This document shows positions 7,549 to 49,081 of a stretch of DNA of 64,000 bases, piece by piece (positions within the stretch are counted from its first letter, which is position 1; each line of letters opens with the position of its first letter). A program made the translations under genes and the position numbers. The notes under the pieces were generated by a model. The model ran no database searches. It saw only the letters and a program-made list of their open reading frames with translations, and had not been told where the DNA came from. The stretch spans positions 1 to 64,000 of the forward strand of contig NZ_CAJQNT010000021.1 in the NCBI RefSeq assembly GCF_905479755.1. The letters are read 5' to 3'. This DNA comes from an uncultured Schumannella sp. (GTDB lineage: Bacteria; Actinomycetota; Actinomycetes; Actinomycetales; Microbacteriaceae).

Positions 7549-7911
7549 TCAGGAGTAGGACGAGTCGCTCCCGGCGCCCGTGATCGCGATCGCGACGATC
7601 CACCACACGGTCGTCAGCACGATCAGGGCGACCGTGGCGTAGCCGAAGCTGAAGCCGGTGACGGCGAGGGCCTTGCCGGTGCCTCCCATCGCCTTCGATT
7701 TGGCGACGCCGAGGTGTCCGAAGATCACGGCGAGCACGGCGGGCAGGAACGCGAGGAACGCCGCGACAAGCCCGATGATCGGAATCAGCGCCCAGATGCC
7801 GATCACGATGGCGGCGATACCGAGCGCGAGGCTGGCGATCGCGAGGCCGTTCGACGGCTTCGCGGGGATCGGAGCGTAGGCAGGCGGCAGTGGCGGCGTG
7901 GGAGTCGTCAT
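7549..7911 (-). CDS. DUF4190-type small membrane protein
   Basis: A 120-residue protein with a short Pro/Thr-rich cytoplasmic lead (TPTPPLPPAYAPIPAKP) and two or three hydrophobic segments with the family pattern NGLAIASLALGIAAI and LAVIFGHLGVAKSK. Such proteins are common in Actinobacteria and have no assigned function. The ATG at 7911 is chosen because the Pro-rich lead begins there. A TACGCT box lies 7 nt upstream on the minus strand, compatible with leaderless expression. Confidence 0.82.
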   Translation of the reverse strand: MTTPTPPLPPAYAPIPAKPSNGLAIASLALGIAAIVIGIWALIPIIGLVAAFLAFLPAVLAVIFGHLGVAKSKAMGGTGKALAVTGFSFGYATVALIVLTTVWWIVAIAITGAGSDSSYS

Positions 7912-7983
7912 GACCTCGAGCGTAGAGAATGTCGCGCGCCCCTGCCAGGCTCCGCGACGGTGCGAGGGACGCGAGCATCGCTC

Positions 7984-7989
7984 TAGGCT
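7984..7989 (+). promoter_or_regulatory. leaderless -10 box (TAGGCT)
   Basis: TAGGCT ends 6 nt before the lipoprotein ATG at 7996. No ribosome binding site is present. Confidence 0.55.
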
Positions 7990-7995
7990 GGGGGC

Positions 7996-8466
7996 ATGAC
8001 TGTGGCTACTCCTTCCCGCTTCGTTGCTGCCGCGGCCGCCGTGACGCTCGCCTTCGCGGTCTCGGCGTGCACCTCGGAGGAGCCCGCGCCGCTTCCGACG
8101 GTGACGGCGAGCGCGCCGCCGAGCGCGATCCCGAACCCCGATCCGACCCTGCGACCGGAGGGCTCGGCGCTGCAGAACCTCGACTATTTCGAGTTCGTTC
8201 TCACGGCAGCGGTCGATGACGGCGCCCGCACCGGCGGCGCATTCGTGGATGCGCTCGCCTCGGCGGGCTTCGACCGATCGGCGATGGAGGTCACGGCCGA
8301 CCGCACGACCGTCAACCTCGACGCCGACAGTGTGCAGTTCTCGGTCTTGATCAACGACACCTGCCTCGTCGGGCAGTACGGCGATGCGATGGGGTTGCAC
8401 GTCGCGGCGCTGCCGGCGCTCGCGACCGGCACCTGTCTCATCGGGGAGACCGAGTCCGTCGGTTGA
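7996..8466 (+). CDS. secreted lipoprotein, DUF6993-like
   Basis: A 156-residue lipoprotein. Residues 1-25 form a signal peptide with the lipobox VSAC, so Cys25 would be acylated and the protein held on the outer face of the membrane. A Pro/Ala linker is followed by a domain of about 100 residues with two Cys (NDTCLVGQYG and GTCLIGE) that probably form a disulfide. The pattern resembles the DUF6993 family, which has no known function. It is expressed from its own leaderless-type promoter. Confidence 0.8.
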   Translation: MTVATPSRFVAAAAAVTLAFAVSACTSEEPAPLPTVTASAPPSAIPNPDPTLRPEGSALQNLDYFEFVLTAAVDDGARTGGAFVDALASAGFDRSAMEVTADRTTVNLDADSVQFSVLINDTCLVGQYGDAMGLHVAALPALATGTCLIGETESVG

Positions 8467-8504
8467 CCGTTCCGCGCGCGTCAGGAACAGGCTCGCGGCT
8501 TCCG

Positions 8505-8510
8505 TAGACT
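8505..8510 (+). promoter_or_regulatory. leaderless -10 box (TAGACT) of ettA
   Basis: TAGACT ends 6 nt before the ettA ATG at 8517. Confidence 0.55.
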
Positions 8511-8516
8511 CGACGC

Positions 8517-10199
<1,683 letters not shown>

Positions 10200-10211
10200 T
10201 CGCACCCGCAC

Positions 10212-10250
10212 GACAACGGCCGCCCCGGAAAACCCGGGGCGGCCGTTGTC
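10212..10250 (+). terminator. terminator between ettA and proX
   Basis: A perfect 17-bp stem (10212-10228 with 10234-10250) around an AAAAC loop. It lies between convergent genes and can serve both. There is no long T-tract. Confidence 0.75.
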
Positions 10251-10292
10251 TGTCCCTGGCGCGGCGTGGGCCGCGGTCAGGATCGAACTGCG

Positions 10293-11210
10293 TTAGTTGG
10301 CGAGAAGGCCCTCGAACGCGTCCGGGTACTCCGCGAGCCATGCGTCGACGGCCTCGGCGTACTGGCCCTCGCCGTACTCGTTGACCACGAGGTTCTCGAG
10401 CGCACCGTACTGGGCGTCATCGAGCTGGATGTTCGCGATCAGCGCGGCGGCCTCGGGGTGCTCCTCCGAAAAGCCGGCGGTGCCGAGGAAGTGAAGACCT
10501 TCGGAGCCGCCCATGGCGCCTTCCGGGTCCTCGAGCGTCTTGATGTCGAAGGCCGCGTTGGCCCAGAACGGACGCCACAGCGTCACGACGATGTCTTCCT
10601 GCGCGTCGATCGCGTTGCCGAGCTCGGTGAGCATGGCGGCGGTCGACGAGGTGACGAGCTCGTACTCGCCGTCCAGGCCGTAGGTCGGCATCATCGTGTC
10701 CTGCGTGAGGGCGGTGAGGCCCGCGCCCGGCTCGATACCGGTGATGACGCCACCGAACATGTCGCCGTTGCCGGCGAGCTCGGCGATCGAGTCGATCTCG
10801 GTGTAGGTCGGAACCGCGATCGTCAGGCTGGCGCCCGCGTAGTAGGTTCCGAGGTCTTCGATGTCGTCGCCGTACTCCTCCATGTAGGAGGCGTGGGTGA
10901 CCTCGGACCACGCCGAGGGGTAAATGTCGACGTCGCCGCCGGCGAGACCGATGTAGAGCGGGGCCGCCTCGGTGAGGGTCTCCATCTCGACGGTGTAGCC
11001 GAGCTTGCCCAGCTGGTCCTCGAGGAGGTACGCGGTGCTCAGACCGTCGGTCCATCCGGGGATGAAGCCGAGCGTGATGGTTCCCATCGACTCGCCGCTG
11101 TCGGATCCGGCGTCACCGGTCTCGGCGGTCGCGCAGCCGGCGAGGCCGACGGTGAGGGCGAGGGCGCCTCCGATGAGGGAGCTACGGCGCAAAGTGCGTC
11201 CATTCAGCAT
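10293..11210 (-). CDS. proX: glycine betaine/choline-type ABC substrate-binding lipoprotein
   Basis: A 305-residue extracellular solute-binding lipoprotein of the OpuAC class. Residues 1-26 are a signal peptide with the lipobox LAGC (Cys26). The mature part has the two-lobed pattern TITLGFIPGWTDGLSTAYL and GGDVDIYPSAWSEVTHA. Several Trp and Tyr (VTLWRPFWANAAF) could form the aromatic cage for a quaternary amine. It follows the permease gene after 87 nt, with its own AGAAAGGA ribosome binding site. The exact ligand (betaine, proline betaine, carnitine or choline) cannot be told. Confidence 0.9.
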   Translation of the reverse strand: MLNGRTLRRSSLIGGALALTVGLAGCATAETGDAGSDSGESMGTITLGFIPGWTDGLSTAYLLEDQLGKLGYTVEMETLTEAAPLYIGLAGGDVDIYPSAWSEVTHASYMEEYGDDIEDLGTYYAGASLTIAVPTYTEIDSIAELAGNGDMFGGVITGIEPGAGLTALTQDTMMPTYGLDGEYELVTSSTAAMLTELGNAIDAQEDIVVTLWRPFWANAAFDIKTLEDPEGAMGGSEGLHFLGTAGFSEEHPEAAALIANIQLDDAQYGALENLVVNEYGEGQYAEAVDAWLAEYPDAFEGLLAN

Positions 11211-39594: not shown

Positions 39595-39620
39595 ATCATC
39601 GGACCGGATGGTGGTCGTCG

Positions 39621-39664
39621 TGGAGGGGATGACGGGAATCGAACCCGCGTCATCAGTTGGGAAG
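39621..39664. repeat. att copy 1: tRNA-Gly 3' half
   Basis: 44 bp matching 49008-49051 of the intact tRNA-Gly gene at all but two positions (39651 and 39659). It contains the CCA end, acceptor 3' strand, T-arm and part of the anticodon arm. It marks the far boundary of the island. Confidence 0.85.
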
Positions 39665-39903
39665 TCGCTCCCCAAACTGTTACCGCTGCTTGCCGCTCGT
39701 GGCCGACTCCGACCGCGCTGAGCCGCCGTGCCCAGTGATTTTGGCGCTTCTTGGGGCGGTCGGCGCTCCGCAGGCGGTCGTCCTCGGTCGGCCTCGGATT
39801 GCCCCGGCGGAGCGCGGTCGCCCTCTTTTTCGCCCTCTCGCGCCCACCTGCGCTCGACCAGCGTTGCCAGTTTGGAGAGTCCTGACGAGGGAGCGTCGGT
39901 TGC
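39665..39903. repeat. left-end repeat of element A
   Basis: About 240 bp that aligns with 44248-44482 with scattered substitutions and small indels. Shared blocks include aaactgttaccgctg, cggtcggcctcggat and cccggcggagcgcggtcgcc. No gene is seen. As the sequence beside each att copy, it could hold recombinase arm sites or an element promoter. Confidence 0.75.
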
Positions 39904-41131: not shown

Positions 41132-41416
41132 TCAGCCGTCCTCGGGGTCGGTCGGGTGCTGCGGCTCGGGCGGCGGGAAGTGGTAGCCGAAGCCGCGGGC
41201 CAGGCAGGTGTCGAGCCAGATCGCCTCGACGGTGCGGTTCCAGGCGGCGCTTTCGACCTCGCCCAGCACGGCGACGACGTCGGGATTCTGTATGTCGTCC
41301 ATCATCACAGAGTGGCCCGCGGGCAGGTCGGCCAGCATCCGCCGGTAGAGGTCTTCGATCTCCGCCTGGTGGACCAGCGCCACGGCGTGCAGGTTGTCCC
41401 GGGCCGTCATGGTCAC
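41132..41416 (-). CDS. recombinase-associated small protein, copy A
   Basis: A 94-residue protein, mostly helical, with RDNLHAVALVHQAEIEDLYR and ADLPAGHSVMMDD. It is about 75 percent identical by eye to the protein at 45734. In both places its GTG overlaps the stop of the recombinase-derived frame by 4 bp (GTGA). The constant link to the recombinase tail suggests a helper such as an excision or directionality factor, but no helix-turn-helix is recognised. The ATG at 41410 is an alternative start. Confidence 0.7.
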   Translation of the reverse strand: MTMTARDNLHAVALVHQAEIEDLYRRMLADLPAGHSVMMDDIQNPDVVAVLGEVESAAWNRTVEAIWLDTCLARGFGYHFPPPEPQHPTDPEDG

Positions 41417-41796
41417 GCCTCCGCCGTGCGGGTGAACGCCTCGAAGCGCTCGACCTCCGCCGAGTAGTCGCTAACGTACAGGTGCTCGTACACGCGCCCG
41501 ACGGCGCAGCCGACGAGTCCCACAATCAACAGCACCTCGACGAGCGAGATTGGTTCGGTGCCGGTGCCCATCGCGACGGTCACGGTCAGCGTCGCCCCGA
41601 TCCCGACCCACACGGCGTAGGCACTGCCGGTGGGGATCTCGCGCATCGCGAGGGCTAGCCCGGTCATGCTGAGCACGAGGGTGACGCCGAACACGATCGT
41701 CGGCGTGGCCTTAGTACGGTTTTCGGAACGCCCGAGCGCGGTCGCCCAGGCGGCTTCGAGAACGCCCGACATGACGAGGATGATCCACGCGCACAC
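41413..41796 (-). CDS. sugE: Gdx/SugE-type SMR exporter fused to a tyrosine-recombinase tail
   Basis: A 127-residue chimera. Residues 1-97 are a small multidrug resistance protein with four membrane segments, the essential Glu14 in GVLEAAWATA and GSAYAVWVGIGA, which are marks of the guanidinium-exporting Gdx (SugE) branch. From residue 99 on (GRVYEHLYVSDYSAEVERFE) the sequence is the C-terminal tail of the recombinase seen at 45997. The usual SMR end is replaced. The GTG at 41796 follows AAGGAG. A guanidine-III riboswitch candidate lies directly upstream. The active site is complete, so export may persist with the extra tail in the cytoplasm. Confidence 0.85.
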   Translation of the reverse strand: MCAWIILVMSGVLEAAWATALGRSENRTKATPTIVFGVTLVLSMTGLALAMREIPTGSAYAVWVGIGATLTVTVAMGTGTEPISLVEVLLIVGLVGCAVGRVYEHLYVSDYSAEVERFEAFTRTAEA

Positions 41797-41809
41797 GACT
41801 GCTCCTTGA

Positions 41810-41850
41810 GGCAAGTCTTGTCACGCACCGGACACTTGGCCATCGTCCGG
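41810..41850 (-). promoter_or_regulatory. guanidine-III (ykkC-III) riboswitch candidate
   Basis: Read on the minus strand, the segment starts CCGGACGATGG, pairs CCGGAC with GTCCGG (41835-41830 region through 41828) and then has GACAAGAC followed by TTGCC. Known ykkC-III RNAs share CCGGACGA, a closing CCGG and GACAAGAC in this order, with a pseudoknot between the loop and the 3' end. Here loop GGCCAAG and end CTTGCC can pair with one bulge. The 3' strand lies 4 nt before AAGGAG, so guanidine binding could control ribosome access to the SMR gene. Recognised from memory, not by a covariance search. Confidence 0.75.
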
Positions 41851-41887
41851 GAGCCGGGGTTGTGGCTCGCGAACCAGCATGCCGGAG

Positions 41888-42190
41888 CTAACTGGGCAGG
41901 GCCTGCGCAGCTGACTCGGGTTCGCGCTCGAGTGTGCGGATCAGCCGCAGCGTGATCCCGAGCGAGATGATCGCGCCGGCGTCGAACGAGATATTGACCA
42001 CCTGCCAGCCGAGAGGGAGCTCGCGCACCGCCCCGGCGCCGAGGGCGAGGGGCACGATCGCGACACACATGATGATGCCCCACTGCACGATCCCCGGCAG
42101 CAGCTGGGCGGCGGGGGATGCGTGCAGCAGGTCGGGCGCGAGCCGCAGCTCCCGCTCGAGCGGGGGGGGGCAACCGGGCGAGAGGCCACG
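41888..42190 (-). pseudogene. membrane-protein fragment
   Basis: The frame closest to the SMR gene reads LLPGIVQWGIIMCVAIVPLA and continues through a second hydrophobic part to a normal C terminus (TLEREPESAAQALPS). An ATG at 42088 would give 66 residues. The same frame stays open further upstream (ERELRLAPDLLHASPAAQ), but no start is found, and a run of nine Gs at 42162-42170 interrupts it. It looks like the 3' part of a membrane-protein gene cut by a rearrangement. The family was not recognised. Confidence 0.5.
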
Positions 42191-42195
42191 TCAGG

Positions 42196-44016
42196 TCATA
42201 CGCACTCCCAGTACGCCCATGCCCATCCGACCTGAATCTCATACAGCCGATTGTCGACCGTGCTGAAGCCGTACTCGGTTCCATCGATCGTCGCCCTGTA
42301 GAAGCTGCGATTCGACGAATTCTCGAATTCAATGACGATGCCCGGAAGGTTTTGGAGCTGACTTGCTGGGCCCCCGAGGGTCACGTCGTAGCCATCGAAG
42401 TGAATCGCACTCTCGGCAGCATCGCCGTAAACCCCCACCACGATGCCCCCGATCGGGCCGCTTCCGTCGCCAGTGAAGAGATTGAACGTTTCCCCATCGG
42501 GCCCCTCGCCGACGAGGCACGCGTAGTTGATGCTCGTATTGGACAAATACCCTGAAGCCTCGTCGCCCGGAGCACCCAACCGGATCGGGCCGACGCCGCC
42601 TGCATCGATTGACCATGCTGCGGGTAGCTTGTACGAGATCCTCAGGGCTCGGGCTTCTGCGGGGAGCGTCCGCTCGCCGGCATAGTCGAACGAATTGACA
42701 AGGACTGGCAGCAGTGCGAGAGCGATTGATGCGCGACCGATCAATCTTCCCGCCAGCTGGCCCGCGGCCTTCTCGCTCAGACCTGTCCTGAGGAGCCCAA
42801 CCGCAAGTTGTTGTGCAACTTGCGTATCGATCTCACTAAGACAGTTCGCCGTCGCGCGAGCGCCAGAAACGACGTCATCGATTTCGCGGACGTGGGACCA
42901 ACAGTTCGCGACCGCGAGCACCGCCGCAAGGTATCCCAAAACCTGGTCGGTGCCCCACGCGACGAGCGCCGACGCCATCGTTGATGCGACAAATTGCGCG
43001 ATACTTGGCGCGGGAAGTTCGATCAGATATTCGGCATTGAAGTCCCTGAGGGCGGATGCTTCGATGCCGAAGCTCACTTCCTCGCCCGAGCCGACAAATA
43101 TTCCGTCGCTGAAGAGGTCGGTGATCGACTCCCCGACGACCGCATCGAGTGATCCGACAGTCTCTAGTGCGTCGTCCAGACCCCCCTCGTACGTGGAATT
43201 GTAGGCCCAACGAGATGTGACTTCGAGCACAACGGGGAACCCGTAGCCGCGATTCGCGCGTGCCTTCACGACGAGCAAGTTAGAGTCGTTTGCGTCGTGG
43301 CCAACACAGAACAGAACTGGATCGTTGGGTTCAAACTTGACGGATGTCTCAAGTACCCAATCCGGAGTCGATTGGAGGCACTCGGGGAGTTCGACTCTGG
43401 TCGTCAACAGGTCGCCCAATGTGTAATGGAGCGCCTCGGCGCCGTCTGCGATTAGGGACGAAATCGAAGCATTCACCTCATCCGCAGCTCCGCCAAGAAA
43501 CGCGCCGACCTGCCCGACAGTTCCCCCGACGGATTCGGCTCCACGAACGAACGACTCGATCGCGTCCTTGGTTCCGCCGACGAGATCGTTCCACCAAGAC
43601 AGATGGTGCACAACAGTTGTCACCGTGCGTCGGTCCGCGCTTAGCTCAGAAGGCGCCGCCACCCACGAGCCGAGAGATGCATCCCAGTAGATGAAAGTCG
43701 CTGTTGCCTCGGCAGGCAGCGGCTCGGCGTAGGTTCGCGTGAGCGTGACCCCGTCCTGGGGGATTTCTCCGGATAGCGCGATCTCGACGGGAACGCCCAT
43801 CACGAGGTCCGTGACCTGGCCGATTCCGGCAAGCTCTTCGATCGCTTCCTTCGTCAGCTCAGGCGCGGCAATTGTGGGCTGCGCGCCATTCCCACTGACT
43901 TGTGCGACGATCGGAGTTGGGCTTGGCGCAGCGGGCACGCATGCAACGAGCGCGCTTGCGACCACTGCAATCGTGGCCATGATCGAAGCCGTGCGAACGC
44001 CGACATCTGTCTTCAT
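42196..44016 (-). CDS. large island lipoprotein
   Basis: A 606-residue secreted lipoprotein. Residues 1-26 are a signal peptide with lipobox VAC (Cys26 in SALVACVPAAPSP). A Pro-rich linker is followed by a beta domain (VTLTRTYAEPLPAEATATFIYWD), an Ala/Gly-rich helical part (about 170-215), a middle domain with several Cys, and a C-terminal domain with GPIRLGAPGDEASGYL and three late Cys. No family is recognised. The base composition is visibly lower in GC than its neighbours, in line with recent transfer. A TAAGGT box ends 6 nt before the ATG. Confidence 0.8.
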   Translation of the reverse strand: MKTDVGVRTASIMATIAVVASALVACVPAAPSPTPIVAQVSGNGAQPTIAAPELTKEAIEELAGIGQVTDLVMGVPVEIALSGEIPQDGVTLTRTYAEPLPAEATATFIYWDASLGSWVAAPSELSADRRTVTTVVHHLSWWNDLVGGTKDAIESFVRGAESVGGTVGQVGAFLGGAADEVNASISSLIADGAEALHYTLGDLLTTRVELPECLQSTPDWVLETSVKFEPNDPVLFCVGHDANDSNLLVVKARANRGYGFPVVLEVTSRWAYNSTYEGGLDDALETVGSLDAVVGESITDLFSDGIFVGSGEEVSFGIEASALRDFNAEYLIELPAPSIAQFVASTMASALVAWGTDQVLGYLAAVLAVANCWSHVREIDDVVSGARATANCLSEIDTQVAQQLAVGLLRTGLSEKAAGQLAGRLIGRASIALALLPVLVNSFDYAGERTLPAEARALRISYKLPAAWSIDAGGVGPIRLGAPGDEASGYLSNTSINYACLVGEGPDGETFNLFTGDGSGPIGGIVVGVYGDAAESAIHFDGYDVTLGGPASQLQNLPGIVIEFENSSNRSFYRATIDGTEYGFSTVDNRLYEIQVGWAWAYWECV

Positions 44017-44127: not shown

Positions 44128-44203
44128 AGCGCGTTCGGGCTATGGCCCTCTTTTCGCCCTCTTGGGAGAATTTGGATGGAGCCGGGATGCGCCTACTTTT
44201 CAG
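44128..44203. repeat. right-end repeat of element A
   Basis: About 76 bp aligning with 48928-49007: gttcgggct, then a gccctctttt-like block, then gccgggatgcgcctact against gccgggaggggcctact. It directly precedes the second att copy, as its counterpart precedes the intact tRNA gene. Confidence 0.65.
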
Positions 44204-44247
44204 TGGAGGGGATGACGGGAATCGAACCCGCGTAATCAGTTCGGAAG
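44204..44247. repeat. att copy 2: tRNA-Gly 3' half
   Basis: 44 bp matching the intact tRNA-Gly (49008-49051) at every position but one (44242). It marks the junction between the tandem elements. Confidence 0.87.
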
Positions 44248-44482
44248 CCGCTCCTCAAACTGTTACCGCTGATTGCCGCCGCCGACCGACACCGGCCGTG
44301 CTGAGCCGCCGCGCCCAGTGATTTCGGGGCTTCTTGGGCCATTCGACGCTTCGCAGGCGGTTGTCTTCGGTCGGCCTCGGATCGCCCCGGCGGAGCGCGG
44401 TCGCCCTCTCTTCGCCCTCTCGCGCCCACCTGCACTCGACCAGTGTTTCCAGTGGAGAGTGCCGCGGAGTGCGTCGGCTGCC
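44248..44482. repeat. left-end repeat of element B
   Basis: Aligns with 39665-39903 of element A over its whole length. It ends about 30 bp before the DUF4062 start codon, so part of it is likely promoter DNA for that gene. Confidence 0.75.
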
Positions 44483-44508: not shown

Positions 44509-44514
44509 GGCGCG

Positions 44515-45723
44515 ATGGAGCAGCGGTATCAGGTATTCATCAGTTCCACGTTCGTCGACCTCATCGACGAGCGTCGCGAAGTCATCGAGGCCTTGTTGGA
44601 GATGGACGCGATCCCGGCGGGTATGGAACTCTTCGCGGCGGGCAACACGGACCAGTGGACCTTGATAAAGCAGGTCATCGACCAGAGCGACTACTACCTC
44701 GTCATCGTCGGCGGCCGCTATGGCAGCACCACGGCCGAGGGCATCTCATACACCGAGATGGAGTATGACTACGCCGTCGAACAAGGGATCCCCGTCATGG
44801 GATTTGTCCACGGCAAGCCGGACGACATCCCGGCTGGTCGCACGGAACTCGACCCAGAGGCGCGCAAGAAGCTCGATGCATTTCGCACCAAGGTCAAGCA
44901 GAAGATCGTCAAGCAGTACACGACGCCCGCAGAGCTTGGCGGCGTCGTCTCTCGAGGCTTGATCAAGTTGCAGCGAGACTTCCCGCGCCCCGGCTGGGTG
45001 CGTGGAGACATGGCAATGACACCCGAGACAGAGGCGCGCATCGCCGAGATGCGCGCCGAACTGGCCGAACTTCGTCAAGCCGCAGCAGAAAAGAGCGAGG
45101 CCGAGGCCCTGCCAAAGATCGAGGGTTTGGCGTCCGGCGACGACCCGTTCGACCTTGAGATGGAGATCACCGGCGAGCACGTCCGGGACCGTGCGAAGCC
45201 TTCCTATCAGCGAAAGAACTATCTCTGGACAGTCGGATACGAGACGAACTGGAACGAGATTCTTCAACAAGTCGGGCCGTCGCTCATGGACGAAGCCTCG
45301 GAGACCGAAATCCGTGAGTCGCTGCAGAACCTTGGACGACAACTCATCCGCGAGCAGCCCGACCGGACGCCTGACGCGATTCTCGAATGGTCACGTAGCG
45401 AGATATCCGGGGCGAGCGTCGACGATGTGCTCGTGCAGTTGTTTGCGCTGGACTTGATCTCGCACGGCAAGAAGAAGCGGACCATGAGCGACCGGAACCG
45501 CTACTGGATGCTTACAGGAGCGGGCCAAGATCAGGTCATGCGCCTTCGTGCGCTTCGAGAGCCGACACCCGATGAGCGTCGGGAACGGCGCAGGACAGAG
45601 CTCGAAAGTCTCACGGTGCCCCGGCTCCGGGTATTGGCACTTGACCACAGCCTCGACGGGAAGGGCGTCAAGCCTGAACTGGTCGCAGCCATCCTTGGCG
45701 CAGAAGGCCATGCCTCCGCGTAG
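44515..45723 (+). CDS. DUF4062 protein with C-terminal SAP-like motif
   Basis: A 402-residue protein. Residues 1-130 are a DUF4062 domain (YQVFISSTFVDLIDERREVI, then VIVGGRYGS and SYTEMEYDYA), a TIR/SEFIR-like fold that often serves as the sensing or effector end of defence-related multidomain proteins. A coiled coil (about 178-205), a winged-helix-like middle (235-345) and a C-terminal SAP-like helix-turn-helix (LTVPRLRVLALDHSLDGKG, about 362-395) follow. SAP motifs bind DNA. Its island location suggests an anti-phage or stress-response role, which is inference only. Confidence 0.85.
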   Translation: MEQRYQVFISSTFVDLIDERREVIEALLEMDAIPAGMELFAAGNTDQWTLIKQVIDQSDYYLVIVGGRYGSTTAEGISYTEMEYDYAVEQGIPVMGFVHGKPDDIPAGRTELDPEARKKLDAFRTKVKQKIVKQYTTPAELGGVVSRGLIKLQRDFPRPGWVRGDMAMTPETEARIAEMRAELAELRQAAAEKSEAEALPKIEGLASGDDPFDLEMEITGEHVRDRAKPSYQRKNYLWTVGYETNWNEILQQVGPSLMDEASETEIRESLQNLGRQLIREQPDRTPDAILEWSRSEISGASVDDVLVQLFALDLISHGKKKRTMSDRNRYWMLTGAGQDQVMRLRALREPTPDERRERRRTELESLTVPRLRVLALDHSLDGKGVKPELVAAILGAEGHASA

Positions 45724-45733
45724 TGCTGTCTGC

Positions 45734-46000
45734 TCAGCCGTCCTCGGCATCGGGCTGCGGGAAGAGGTAGCCGAAGCCGCGGGTGAAGCAGGCGTCGAGC
45801 CATATCGCTTCGACGGTGCGGTTCCGGGCGGCACTTTCGACCTCGCCCAGCACGGCAACGACGTCGGGGTTCGGTAGATCGTTCATGGTGACCGAGTGAC
45901 CCTGGGGTAGCGCGGCGAGCATCCGCCGGTAGAGGTCTTCGATCTCGGCCTGGTGTGCCAGCGCGACGCCGCGGAGGTCGTCTCGGGCCGTCATGGTCAC
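45734..46000 (-). CDS. recombinase-associated small protein, copy B
   Basis: An 88-residue protein, paralogous to that at 41132 (shared RDxLxxVALxHQAEIEDLYR and the NRTVEAIWLD block). The GTG at 46000 overlaps the recombinase stop by 4 bp, so it depends on recombinase translation. The conserved coupling in both elements makes a role in recombination likely. No known fold was recognised. Confidence 0.7.
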   Translation of the reverse strand: MTMTARDDLRGVALAHQAEIEDLYRRMLAALPQGHSVTMNDLPNPDVVAVLGEVESAARNRTVEAIWLDACFTRGFGYLFPQPDAEDG

Positions 46001-46416
46001 GCGTCCGCCGTGCGGGTGAACGCCTCGAAGCGCTCGACCTTCGCCGAGTACTCGCTGACGTACAGGTGCCCGTACACGCGCCCCACGAGTTCGAGGGACG
46101 AGTGCCCGAGCCACCGCGACACCTGGAACGGCTGGAACCCTGCCGCCAGCCACAGGCTCGCTGCGGTGTGTCGGGTGTCGTGGTTGCGGATGTGGTCGAC
46201 GCCGACCGCCTGCGCTGCGGGGAGCAGGTAGTAGTTCAGGAAGCCGCTCATGGCGATGGGGCGCGTCCAGCCGAGGCGGCGGGAGCCGTTCTCGCGGGCG
46301 GGCCAGAACAGCGCATCGGCGTCGCCCGCGTTCGGGTTGGCGAGCGGTACGTTCCGCAGGGCGGCCACGAGCGCCTTCGACAGGATCAGCGCGTCGCGCG
46401 TGCTGCGTGAAGGCGT
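45997..46416 (-). pseudogene. truncated tyrosine recombinase (integrase) C-terminal part
   Basis: The last 139 residues of a phage-type tyrosine recombinase. The HxxR box (NHDTRHTAASLWLAAG), the GH box (SRWLGHSS) and the Tyr-containing end (GRVYGHLYVSEYS) are present. The N-terminal arm and core-binding domains and the first catalytic Arg are missing. Reading upstream, the frame meets the UDG-like gene's TAG stop at 46417-46419, so the deletion joint lies there. This was presumably the enzyme that targeted tRNA-Gly. Confidence 0.85.
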
Positions 46417-47028
46417 CTACACCAACAGGGCAGCGGCTCGCCTGACGGCGGCGGCGAACTCCGCGCGACGGGAGCCGAAGTTCAACGACTGCGCGCTCGG
46501 GTGATGTGTCTCAATGACCGCGGGGCCGGGGCCGTCGAACAGTCCGGCGACGTAGCGCCGCCACCCCTGCCGTGCGTAGTCACCGCACAGGACGACAACG
46601 GTGAGCCGGGGGAGCAGCTCGATCAGGTACCGGAGCTGGACCGCGCCGTCAGCCAACTCCAGTGGGGTCGGCTTCACGGACGCGGCACCGAGATACCAGG
46701 GGACGATGTTCGCGTGCAGGCAGTCGTCCAGTAGTCCGGCATCAGTGCGCGCCTGCCAGAGGTTGGCTGCGGTCTGGTCGTTGTTGTCGGCGCTGATGAA
46801 CCCCGAGCCCTTCCCGGCAGCAGCCTTCGGCCCCGGCGCTTCGAGCACGAACAGCACTCGGGCATCTGTACCCGCGTCGGTCGGGTCGAATGCAGGCGCG
46901 TCTCTGCCCCGGATCGACAGATCGCCGACGTAGTCGCGCAGCGCGGCGAGTGCCGGGCCTTGCCAGAGGGCGCGACGCTCGGCCACTGCCTCGGGATCGC
47001 GCAGCGAGCGAGGTCCGGTGGCATCCAC
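46417..47028 (-). CDS. uracil-DNA-glycosylase-superfamily protein
   Basis: A 203-residue soluble protein. Motif 1 is VLFVLEAPGPKA, where family 4-like enzymes have GEAPG, and motif 2 is THHPSAQSL, with the HPS core. Between them lies GFISADNNDQTAANLW. This fits the UDG superfamily, which removes uracil or other bases from DNA or has been recruited to sense damaged or modified DNA. GTG start. It is divergent from the XRE regulator across a perfect palindrome, so its expression is probably switched by that regulator. Confidence 0.78.
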   Translation of the reverse strand: MDATGPRSLRDPEAVAERRALWQGPALAALRDYVGDLSIRGRDAPAFDPTDAGTDARVLFVLEAPGPKAAAGKGSGFISADNNDQTAANLWQARTDAGLLDDCLHANIVPWYLGAASVKPTPLELADGAVQLRYLIELLPRLTVVVLCGDYARQGWRRYVAGLFDGPGPAVIETHHPSAQSLNFGSRRAEFAAAVRRAAALLV

Positions 47029-47086: not shown

Positions 47087-47308
47087 GTGCCGAAATCAGC
47101 CCCGCCGTCGCCCTGGCGGGACGACCTCGGGGCGCGTGTTCGCGAACTCCGAGCCGAGCGGCAATGGTCGCAAGAGACACTCGCCGAGCGCGCGGACATC
47201 CATACGGCCTATGTCAGCGGTATCGAGCGCGGACGCCGCAACGTAAGCGTCGACAATCTGCATCGTCTGGCCGTCGCATTCGATATCCAAGTTCATGATC
47301 TGTTCTAA
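47087..47308 (+). CDS. XRE-family regulator
   Basis: A 73-residue protein that is little more than a Cro/C1-type helix-turn-helix: VRELRAERQWSQETLAERAD, then HTAYVSGIERGRRN. The size and form are those of restriction-modification controller (C) proteins and phage repressors. The GTG start has no strong ribosome binding site. It faces away from the UDG-like gene and probably represses both from the palindrome at 47040-47065. Confidence 0.88.
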   Translation: MPKSAPPSPWRDDLGARVRELRAERQWSQETLAERADIHTAYVSGIERGRRNVSVDNLHRLAVAFDIQVHDLF

Positions 47309-48838: not shown

Positions 48839-48912
48839 TGGAGGGGCGGACGGGAATCGAACCCGCGTAGTTAGTTCGGAAGACTGAGGTTCGACCATTG
48901 CGCTACCGCCCC
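48839..48912 (-). tRNA. degenerate tRNA-Gly(TCC)-like gene
   Basis: 74 nt with encoded CCA, a perfect 7-bp acceptor stem (GGGGCGG/CCGCCCC), an intact T-arm and a TCC anticodon in CTTCCGA. The D-stem is broken (GCGC against GAAC), and the anticodon stem has one C-A mismatch. It is clearly derived from tRNA-Gly(TCC) but differs from the intact copy 95 bp away. The compensated acceptor stem suggests it evolved as a tRNA, perhaps on the element, rather than being a simple decayed copy. Probably a pseudo-tRNA. Confidence 0.6.
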
Positions 48913-48927
48913 GAATCCGTACGCAGT

Positions 48928-49007
48928 TGTTCGGGCTGTCGCCGTCTCTTCGCTCTCACAAGCGAATCTGGCCGAAGCCGGGAGGGGCCTACTTCTCAGC
49001 AATTACG
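48928..49007. repeat. right-end repeat of element B
   Basis: About 80 bp aligning with 44128-44203, with an extra caattac-like insert just before the tRNA CCA end. Together with the left-end repeats it shows that the two elements share a common ancestor. Confidence 0.65.
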
Positions 49008-49081
49008 TGGAGGGGATGACGGGAATCGAACCCGCGTAATCAGTTTGGAAGACTGAGGCTCTACCATTGAGCTACATCCCC
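49008..49081 (-). tRNA. tRNA-Gly(TCC), intact
   Basis: 74 nt including the encoded CCA. The acceptor stem is GGGGATG/CATCCCC, the D-arm GCTC/GAGC, the anticodon stem TCAGT/ACTGA around CTTCCAA (anticodon TCC), and the T-arm CGGG/CCCG with TTCGATT. All stems pair. Its 3' half is the attachment site of the island to its left. Confidence 0.96.

Follow-up and report, generated by a model that had tools for sequence, protein, structure and literature searches.

In-frame fusion of an SMR exporter gene to a recombinase tail beside tRNA-Gly fragments in an uncultured Schumannella sp.

The closest described counterparts of the gene analyzed here are the Gdx-type SMR exporters, among them Gdx-Clo (PDB 6WK5/6WK9). 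The accessible part of PMC9574504 assigns roles in SMRs to a central Glu, a Trp, a Ser, a switch Tyr, a further Trp and the GXG residues, and it gives an Arg/Lys balance for single-gene SMRs that is centered at 0, with 3% lying beyond +/-2. C-terminal positive charges are reported, in the portion of PMC4560821 available, to force a single orientation on EmrE. For the surrounding DNA, the nearest described systems are the genomic islands in tRNA genes, including tandem arrays, as Islander defines them in the accessible part of PMC4383910. Below we compare these systems with a locus in the first 64,000 nucleotides of contig NZ_CAJQNT010000021.1 from an uncultured Schumannella sp. (this whole stretch is referred to as the window).

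An SMR gene that runs into a recombinase end

The fusion of an exporter gene with a recombinase tail is real and made of known parts. It comprises the following features.

41413 to 41796, minus strand: in-frame fusion of an SMR exporter gene with a recombinase C-terminus, giving 127 residues if started at the GTG and 133 if started at a TTG at 41814
41497 to 41796, minus strand: SMR part of the fusion (residues 1 to 100 in GTG numbering; four predicted helices)
41413 to 41496, minus strand: recombinase-derived tail of the fusion (27 residues plus the stop)
41808 to 41871, minus strand: guanidine-III riboswitch match (RF01763, model positions 1 to 67), directly upstream of the SMR start

The minus-strand frame runs without an internal stop to 41413 from either the TTG at 41814 or the GTG at 41796; the latter, 5 bases after an AAGGAG, is the likelier start. 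The SMR frame stays open to the end of the fourth membrane helix, and recombinase-derived residues then follow in frame. Taken with the VG that precedes it (29 residues in all), the tail is identical at 25 of 29 positions to the recombinase at 45997 and at 28 of 29 to an integrase end in a Microbacteriaceae MAG contig (L034). The in-frame joint proposed in the first-pass annotation is thus borne out by the open frame, the Pfam SMR match given below and this identity. That annotation had the SMR part end at about residue 97 and counted 29 tail residues. It was right about the switch to recombinase sequence, but SMR sequence reaches residue 100 (GTG numbering) and 27 residues follow, the VG being common to both parent proteins. 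At the DNA level, the L034 and window copies share 17 identical bases from CGTCGGG on and are unrelated upstream of it. The joint point reads GTCGG in 16 of 31 SMR relatives and GTCGGGC in 6 of them, so the parents may have shared some five to seven bases, an estimate that rests on relatives from which the true SMR parent may differ. A 33-base sequence across the joint occurs once in the 64,000-nt window and in none of 100 shuffles.

The SMR part matched Pfam Multi_Drug_Res (PF00893) at 64.5 bits (cut-off, 23.7) over residues 9 to 98 (TTG start) and profile positions 2 to 91 of 93; a match above the curated cut-off and across the whole domain places it in the SMR family. The nearest solved structure was 6wk5 of the Gdx-Clo set (E = 1.4e-12), and the best EmrE entry reached 3.2e-5. 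Aligned with 6wk5, the fusion has the same four-helix core, with the central Glu14, Trp17, Ser43, switch Tyr60, Trp63 and the GIG fulcrum at 65 to 67 (GTG numbering) in matching places; the features that mark Gdx proteins (central Glu, Trp/Ser/Trp stack, switch Tyr and GXG fulcrum) are partly common to other subtypes. The NCBIfam SugE model (NF008512.1) was the best of its library, but its 60.8 bits fall short of the cut-off, 126. In the window's genome, a search at E 0.001 found the fusion as the only SMR match (the other match was the recombinase end at 46000 to 46089), and one other genome of the genus had no SMR match at this threshold.

As in Gdx-type SMR exporters, a guanidine riboswitch match lies upstream. 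It covers the full RF01763 model at the expected place, but its 31.2 bits (E = 0.0019 over 10.5 kb) fall below the gathering score of 36. Above-threshold guanidine-III riboswitches were found in 30 of the 31 SMR relatives, at 45.1 to 65.4 bits, and none in the remaining one (L031). Folding of the riboswitch stretch in the window was no better than that of shuffled sequences (z = -0.25; 74 of 200 shuffles at least as good). The annotation's assignment to the guanidinium exporter family agrees with the nearest structure, the kept key residues and the riboswitch match; the exporter is Gdx-like and would probably export guanidinium. Farther upstream, between the riboswitch and a 606-residue gene at 42196, a 66-residue membrane-protein-like piece with no Pfam match (41888 to 42088, minus strand) may be a further deletion scar. 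Near 42165 there is a stretch of at least nine G.

The fusion differs from Gdx-type exporters in that its own C-terminal end has been replaced by the 27 recombinase residues. We rejected the idea that such a tail is a normal SMR ending, which would have undone the annotation's reading: all 31 aligned SMR relatives (L003 to L033) end 5 to 11 residues beyond the VG (in some, IG) of the joint point (8 residues in 20 of 31), and the genome listings agree. Among the best matches listed for two overlapping genome sets, 398 genomes of the family (242 matched) and 396 of the order (207 matched), the tail was covered without a stop only in the window's own genome; a few other genomes reached query residue 115 to 130, with a stop inside. 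Exact short peptide patterns, searched in genome contigs from which the window's own genome or very near ones are excluded, yielded 3 loci out of 173 stretches and no tailed SMR relative. The viral contigs scanned contained neither a tailed relative nor the exact joint. None of 1180 plasmid records and none of 6 phage records covered 80% of the fusion query; together with the viral contigs, this led us to reject the idea that the fusion came from a phage or a plasmid. Among the papers listed in literature searches, none dealt with such an SMR-recombinase fusion, as judged by title or the start of the abstract. The search for SMR proteins ending in this tail, which the annotation had proposed, therefore yielded no second one in the family and order genome matches listed, contigs, viral contigs, plasmids or phages, and the fusion is seen in one genome. 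To that extent the tailed exporter may be called new, as the annotation had it; its functional novelty is weakened by the signs of relaxed constraint described below and by its presence in a single genome.

Two tRNA-Gly elements and the source of the tail

The tail and the neighboring genes can be traced to a pair of related elements, named A and B.

39620 to 39871, no strand assigned: end arm of element A with a tRNA-Gly 3' fragment (39621 to 39664; 95.5% of 44)
44203 to 44453, no strand assigned: end arm of element B with a tRNA-Gly 3' fragment (44204 to 44247; 97.7% of 44)
48839 to 48912, minus strand: tRNA-Gly(TCC), weaker copy (41.2 bits)
49008 to 49081, minus strand: tRNA-Gly(TCC), strong copy (74.5 bits), which both fragments match best and which is the presumed integration target
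41132 to 41416, minus strand: small gene of element A (94 residues), starting in a GTGA overlap with the fusion
45734 to 46000, minus strand: small gene of element B, a paralogue of 41132 to 41416
45997 to 46368, minus strand: truncated recombinase of element B, reduced to the C-terminal catalytic part (the upstream part is missing beside a UDG-like gene)

The two arms are 88.5% identical over 252 bases, and a related arm in L034 aligns at 90.1% over 213. Both 44-base tRNA 3' fragments have the same orientation as tRNA-Gly(TCC). Given the fragments and the shared arms, 39.6 to 44.2 kb (A) and 44.2 to 49 kb (B) look like two tandem insertions. The window resembles the islands that the accessible part of PMC4383910 describes in its tRNA gene, its displaced 3' fragments of the same orientation and its tandem arrangement. 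It differs from them in that neither element has a whole integrase, so element A departs from the Islander rule that each member of an array has one integrase.

In element A, the recombinase is cut to its last 27 to 29 codons, which adjoin the SMR gene; element B retains a 123-codon piece. The latter had been taken for an intact recombinase, which it is not: whole relatives have 378 to 402 residues, and its Phage_integrase match (28.9 bits; cut-off, 27.1) spans profile positions 116 to 169 of 172, leaving the catalytic domain incomplete. The tail alone is too short for an enzyme. Its RVY presumably includes the catalytic tyrosine of the recombinase, which is meaningless without the remaining enzyme. 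A 300-nt repeat comprising the recombinase end and the small gene (41166 to 41465 versus 45750 to 46049) is 87% identical, and the GTGA overlap of the stop with the small gene is identical in both window copies, so that the annotation was correct in stating that this link had been kept. The small gene at 41132 to 41416 had no match in Pfam, PADLOC or NCBIfam and was present in 2 of 398 family genomes, the window's own and one other (G126). In the latter, near a tRNA-Tyr, a 400-residue integrase overlaps the small gene by ATGA; judging by this arrangement, the recombinase and the small gene would form an operon in their whole form.

A broken recombinase beside a tRNA gene is common in this recombinase group. 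Among the 12 closest recombinase relatives (own excluded), 11 had a tRNA gene within the fetched 9 to 18 kb (L078 had none), 6 were near a tRNA-Gly(TCC), and 6 were broken, with a frame too short for a whole enzyme or an internal stop. In one contig (L068), two tRNA-Gly copies separated by about 4.8 kb flank a 378-residue integrase. This integrase (7678 to 8814) points towards the tRNA, whereas the recombinase at 45997 to 46368 points away from it; the element orientation is therefore not fully explained, and the two element groups differ.

Several other features of the elements were recorded. A DUF4062 protein (44512 to 45723, plus strand; 99 bits) is cargo of element B, and a UDG-superfamily gene (46417 to 47028, minus strand) adjoins the recombinase fragment of that element; a piece related to this gene (60% over the matched part) lies at 10034 to 10477 inside the L068 element. 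The small gene of L034 (340 to 618) has an in-frame stop and does not overlap the integrase end. The two tRNA-Gly(TCC) copies at 48839 to 49081 lie 169 bases apart, and L067 and L068 show a second partial copy at a similar distance. PADLOC, run on 9 proteins, gave matches only for an HTH protein at 47087.

The contig could in principle have brought together an SMR gene and a recombinase end that belong to different places. Such a misjoin is conceivable because the genome is in 54 contigs and the recombinase end occurs twice in the window. Against it, no exact 15-mer from 41443 onward (tested stretch, 41431 to 41560) recurs in the window, which thus offers no repeat across the joint, and the tail and small gene of element A differ in sequence from their element B counterparts and lie within a separate element that has an arm of its own. 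We consider an assembly artefact unlikely.

We favor, at a probability of about three in four, a one-off chance fusion scar in a decaying tRNA-Gly element rather than a novel type of pump, with a tail that has no selected role and a gene under relaxed constraint. A small tRNA-Gly element would have carried a Gdx-like SMR gene as cargo, and a deletion or replacement would have taken out its tyrosine recombinase gene almost entirely. The SMR gene, a few codons before its own stop, would thereby have been joined in frame to the last 27 recombinase codons at the shareable VG. The predicted product is a four-helix exporter whose C-terminus is extended by foreign, acidic sequence, and the GTGA would still couple the fusion to the small gene formerly downstream of the recombinase. 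The annotation had a deletion create the single frame, a fair inference, although a replacement would look no different in the sequence. The unremarkable fold of the riboswitch stretch, the low SugE score and the incompletely explained element orientation count against our reading.

Constraint on the exporter and the role of the tail

Of 42 alignment columns with at least 95% conservation among the 31 relatives, the SMR part of the fusion departs at 6. Four departures change conserved core positions (V22A, F33R, T64S and K93E in TTG numbering), and two more lie at the joint. In leave-one-out comparisons, 29 family members departed at 0 to 2 columns and two Nocardia relatives at 4 each. The SMR end branch was the longest of 32 (0.48 versus a median of 0.13) but was not flagged as long by the tree tool. 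Mean pN of the SMR part was 0.221; the 29 family members gave 0.146 to 0.192, and the Nocardia relatives 0.213 and 0.240. The longest end branch, the raised pN, the four core departures and the low riboswitch score suggest relaxed constraint, under which the gene most likely stands. Plain lineage divergence could also explain the SMR rate, as the two Nocardia relatives show a similar pN and also depart at 4 columns. The open frame, the kept key residues and a pN below the mean pS of 0.488 fit a working protein, and the scarred exporter is possibly still active.

A stronger version of decay is a pseudogene whose fused frame is untranslated or yields no working transporter. The weak riboswitch points this way, as do the replaced Phe33 and Lys93 and the start: the relatives' ATG corresponds to TGC in the fusion, so the GTG one codon upstream must serve. 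However, the frame is open over 127 codons, its GC3 (0.88) is as in relatives, every key residue checked is in place, and the gain of Arg33 makes up for the loss of Lys93, so that the loop total stays at 3, as in relatives. We regard a pseudogene as a real possibility, at odds somewhat below even.

The opposite reading is that selection has kept the tail, for instance because it changes how the exporter is oriented in the membrane, how stable it is or which partner it pairs with, or because it brings the small gene under the control of guanidinium. With the tail the Arg/Lys balance comes to +1, and without it to -2 (relatives, -1 in 30 of 31 and -2 in the other), EmrE orientation responds to added C-terminal positive charge (PMC4560821, accessible part), and the GTGA coupling places the small gene behind the exporter. 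Yet the tail's 3 Arg are accompanied by 6 acidic residues, and a balance of +1 is within the range that the accessible part of PMC9574504 reports for ordinary single-gene SMRs. The tail is also found in one genome only, with no close relative carrying it in the searches made. An AlphaFold model, weak and built from three sequences only (mean pLDDT, 64.2; pTM, 0.35), has four helices, the last extending through the tail. An orientation effect of the tail in this protein, argued by analogy with EmrE, would be speculation, and we hold a selected tail to be quite improbable. The full chain, in which a working exporter has its orientation balance shifted by the tail, its translation drives the small gene and guanidinium controls a former recombination operon, seems highly improbable.

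As a scar, our preferred explanation, the fusion is ordinary. If it is translated, it would be a natural example of the decay of a tRNA-targeted element extending a cargo protein, and the downstream gene would have been handed to a new promoter and riboswitch. Because SMR orientation responds to C-terminal charge, the fusion may also serve as a natural test protein.
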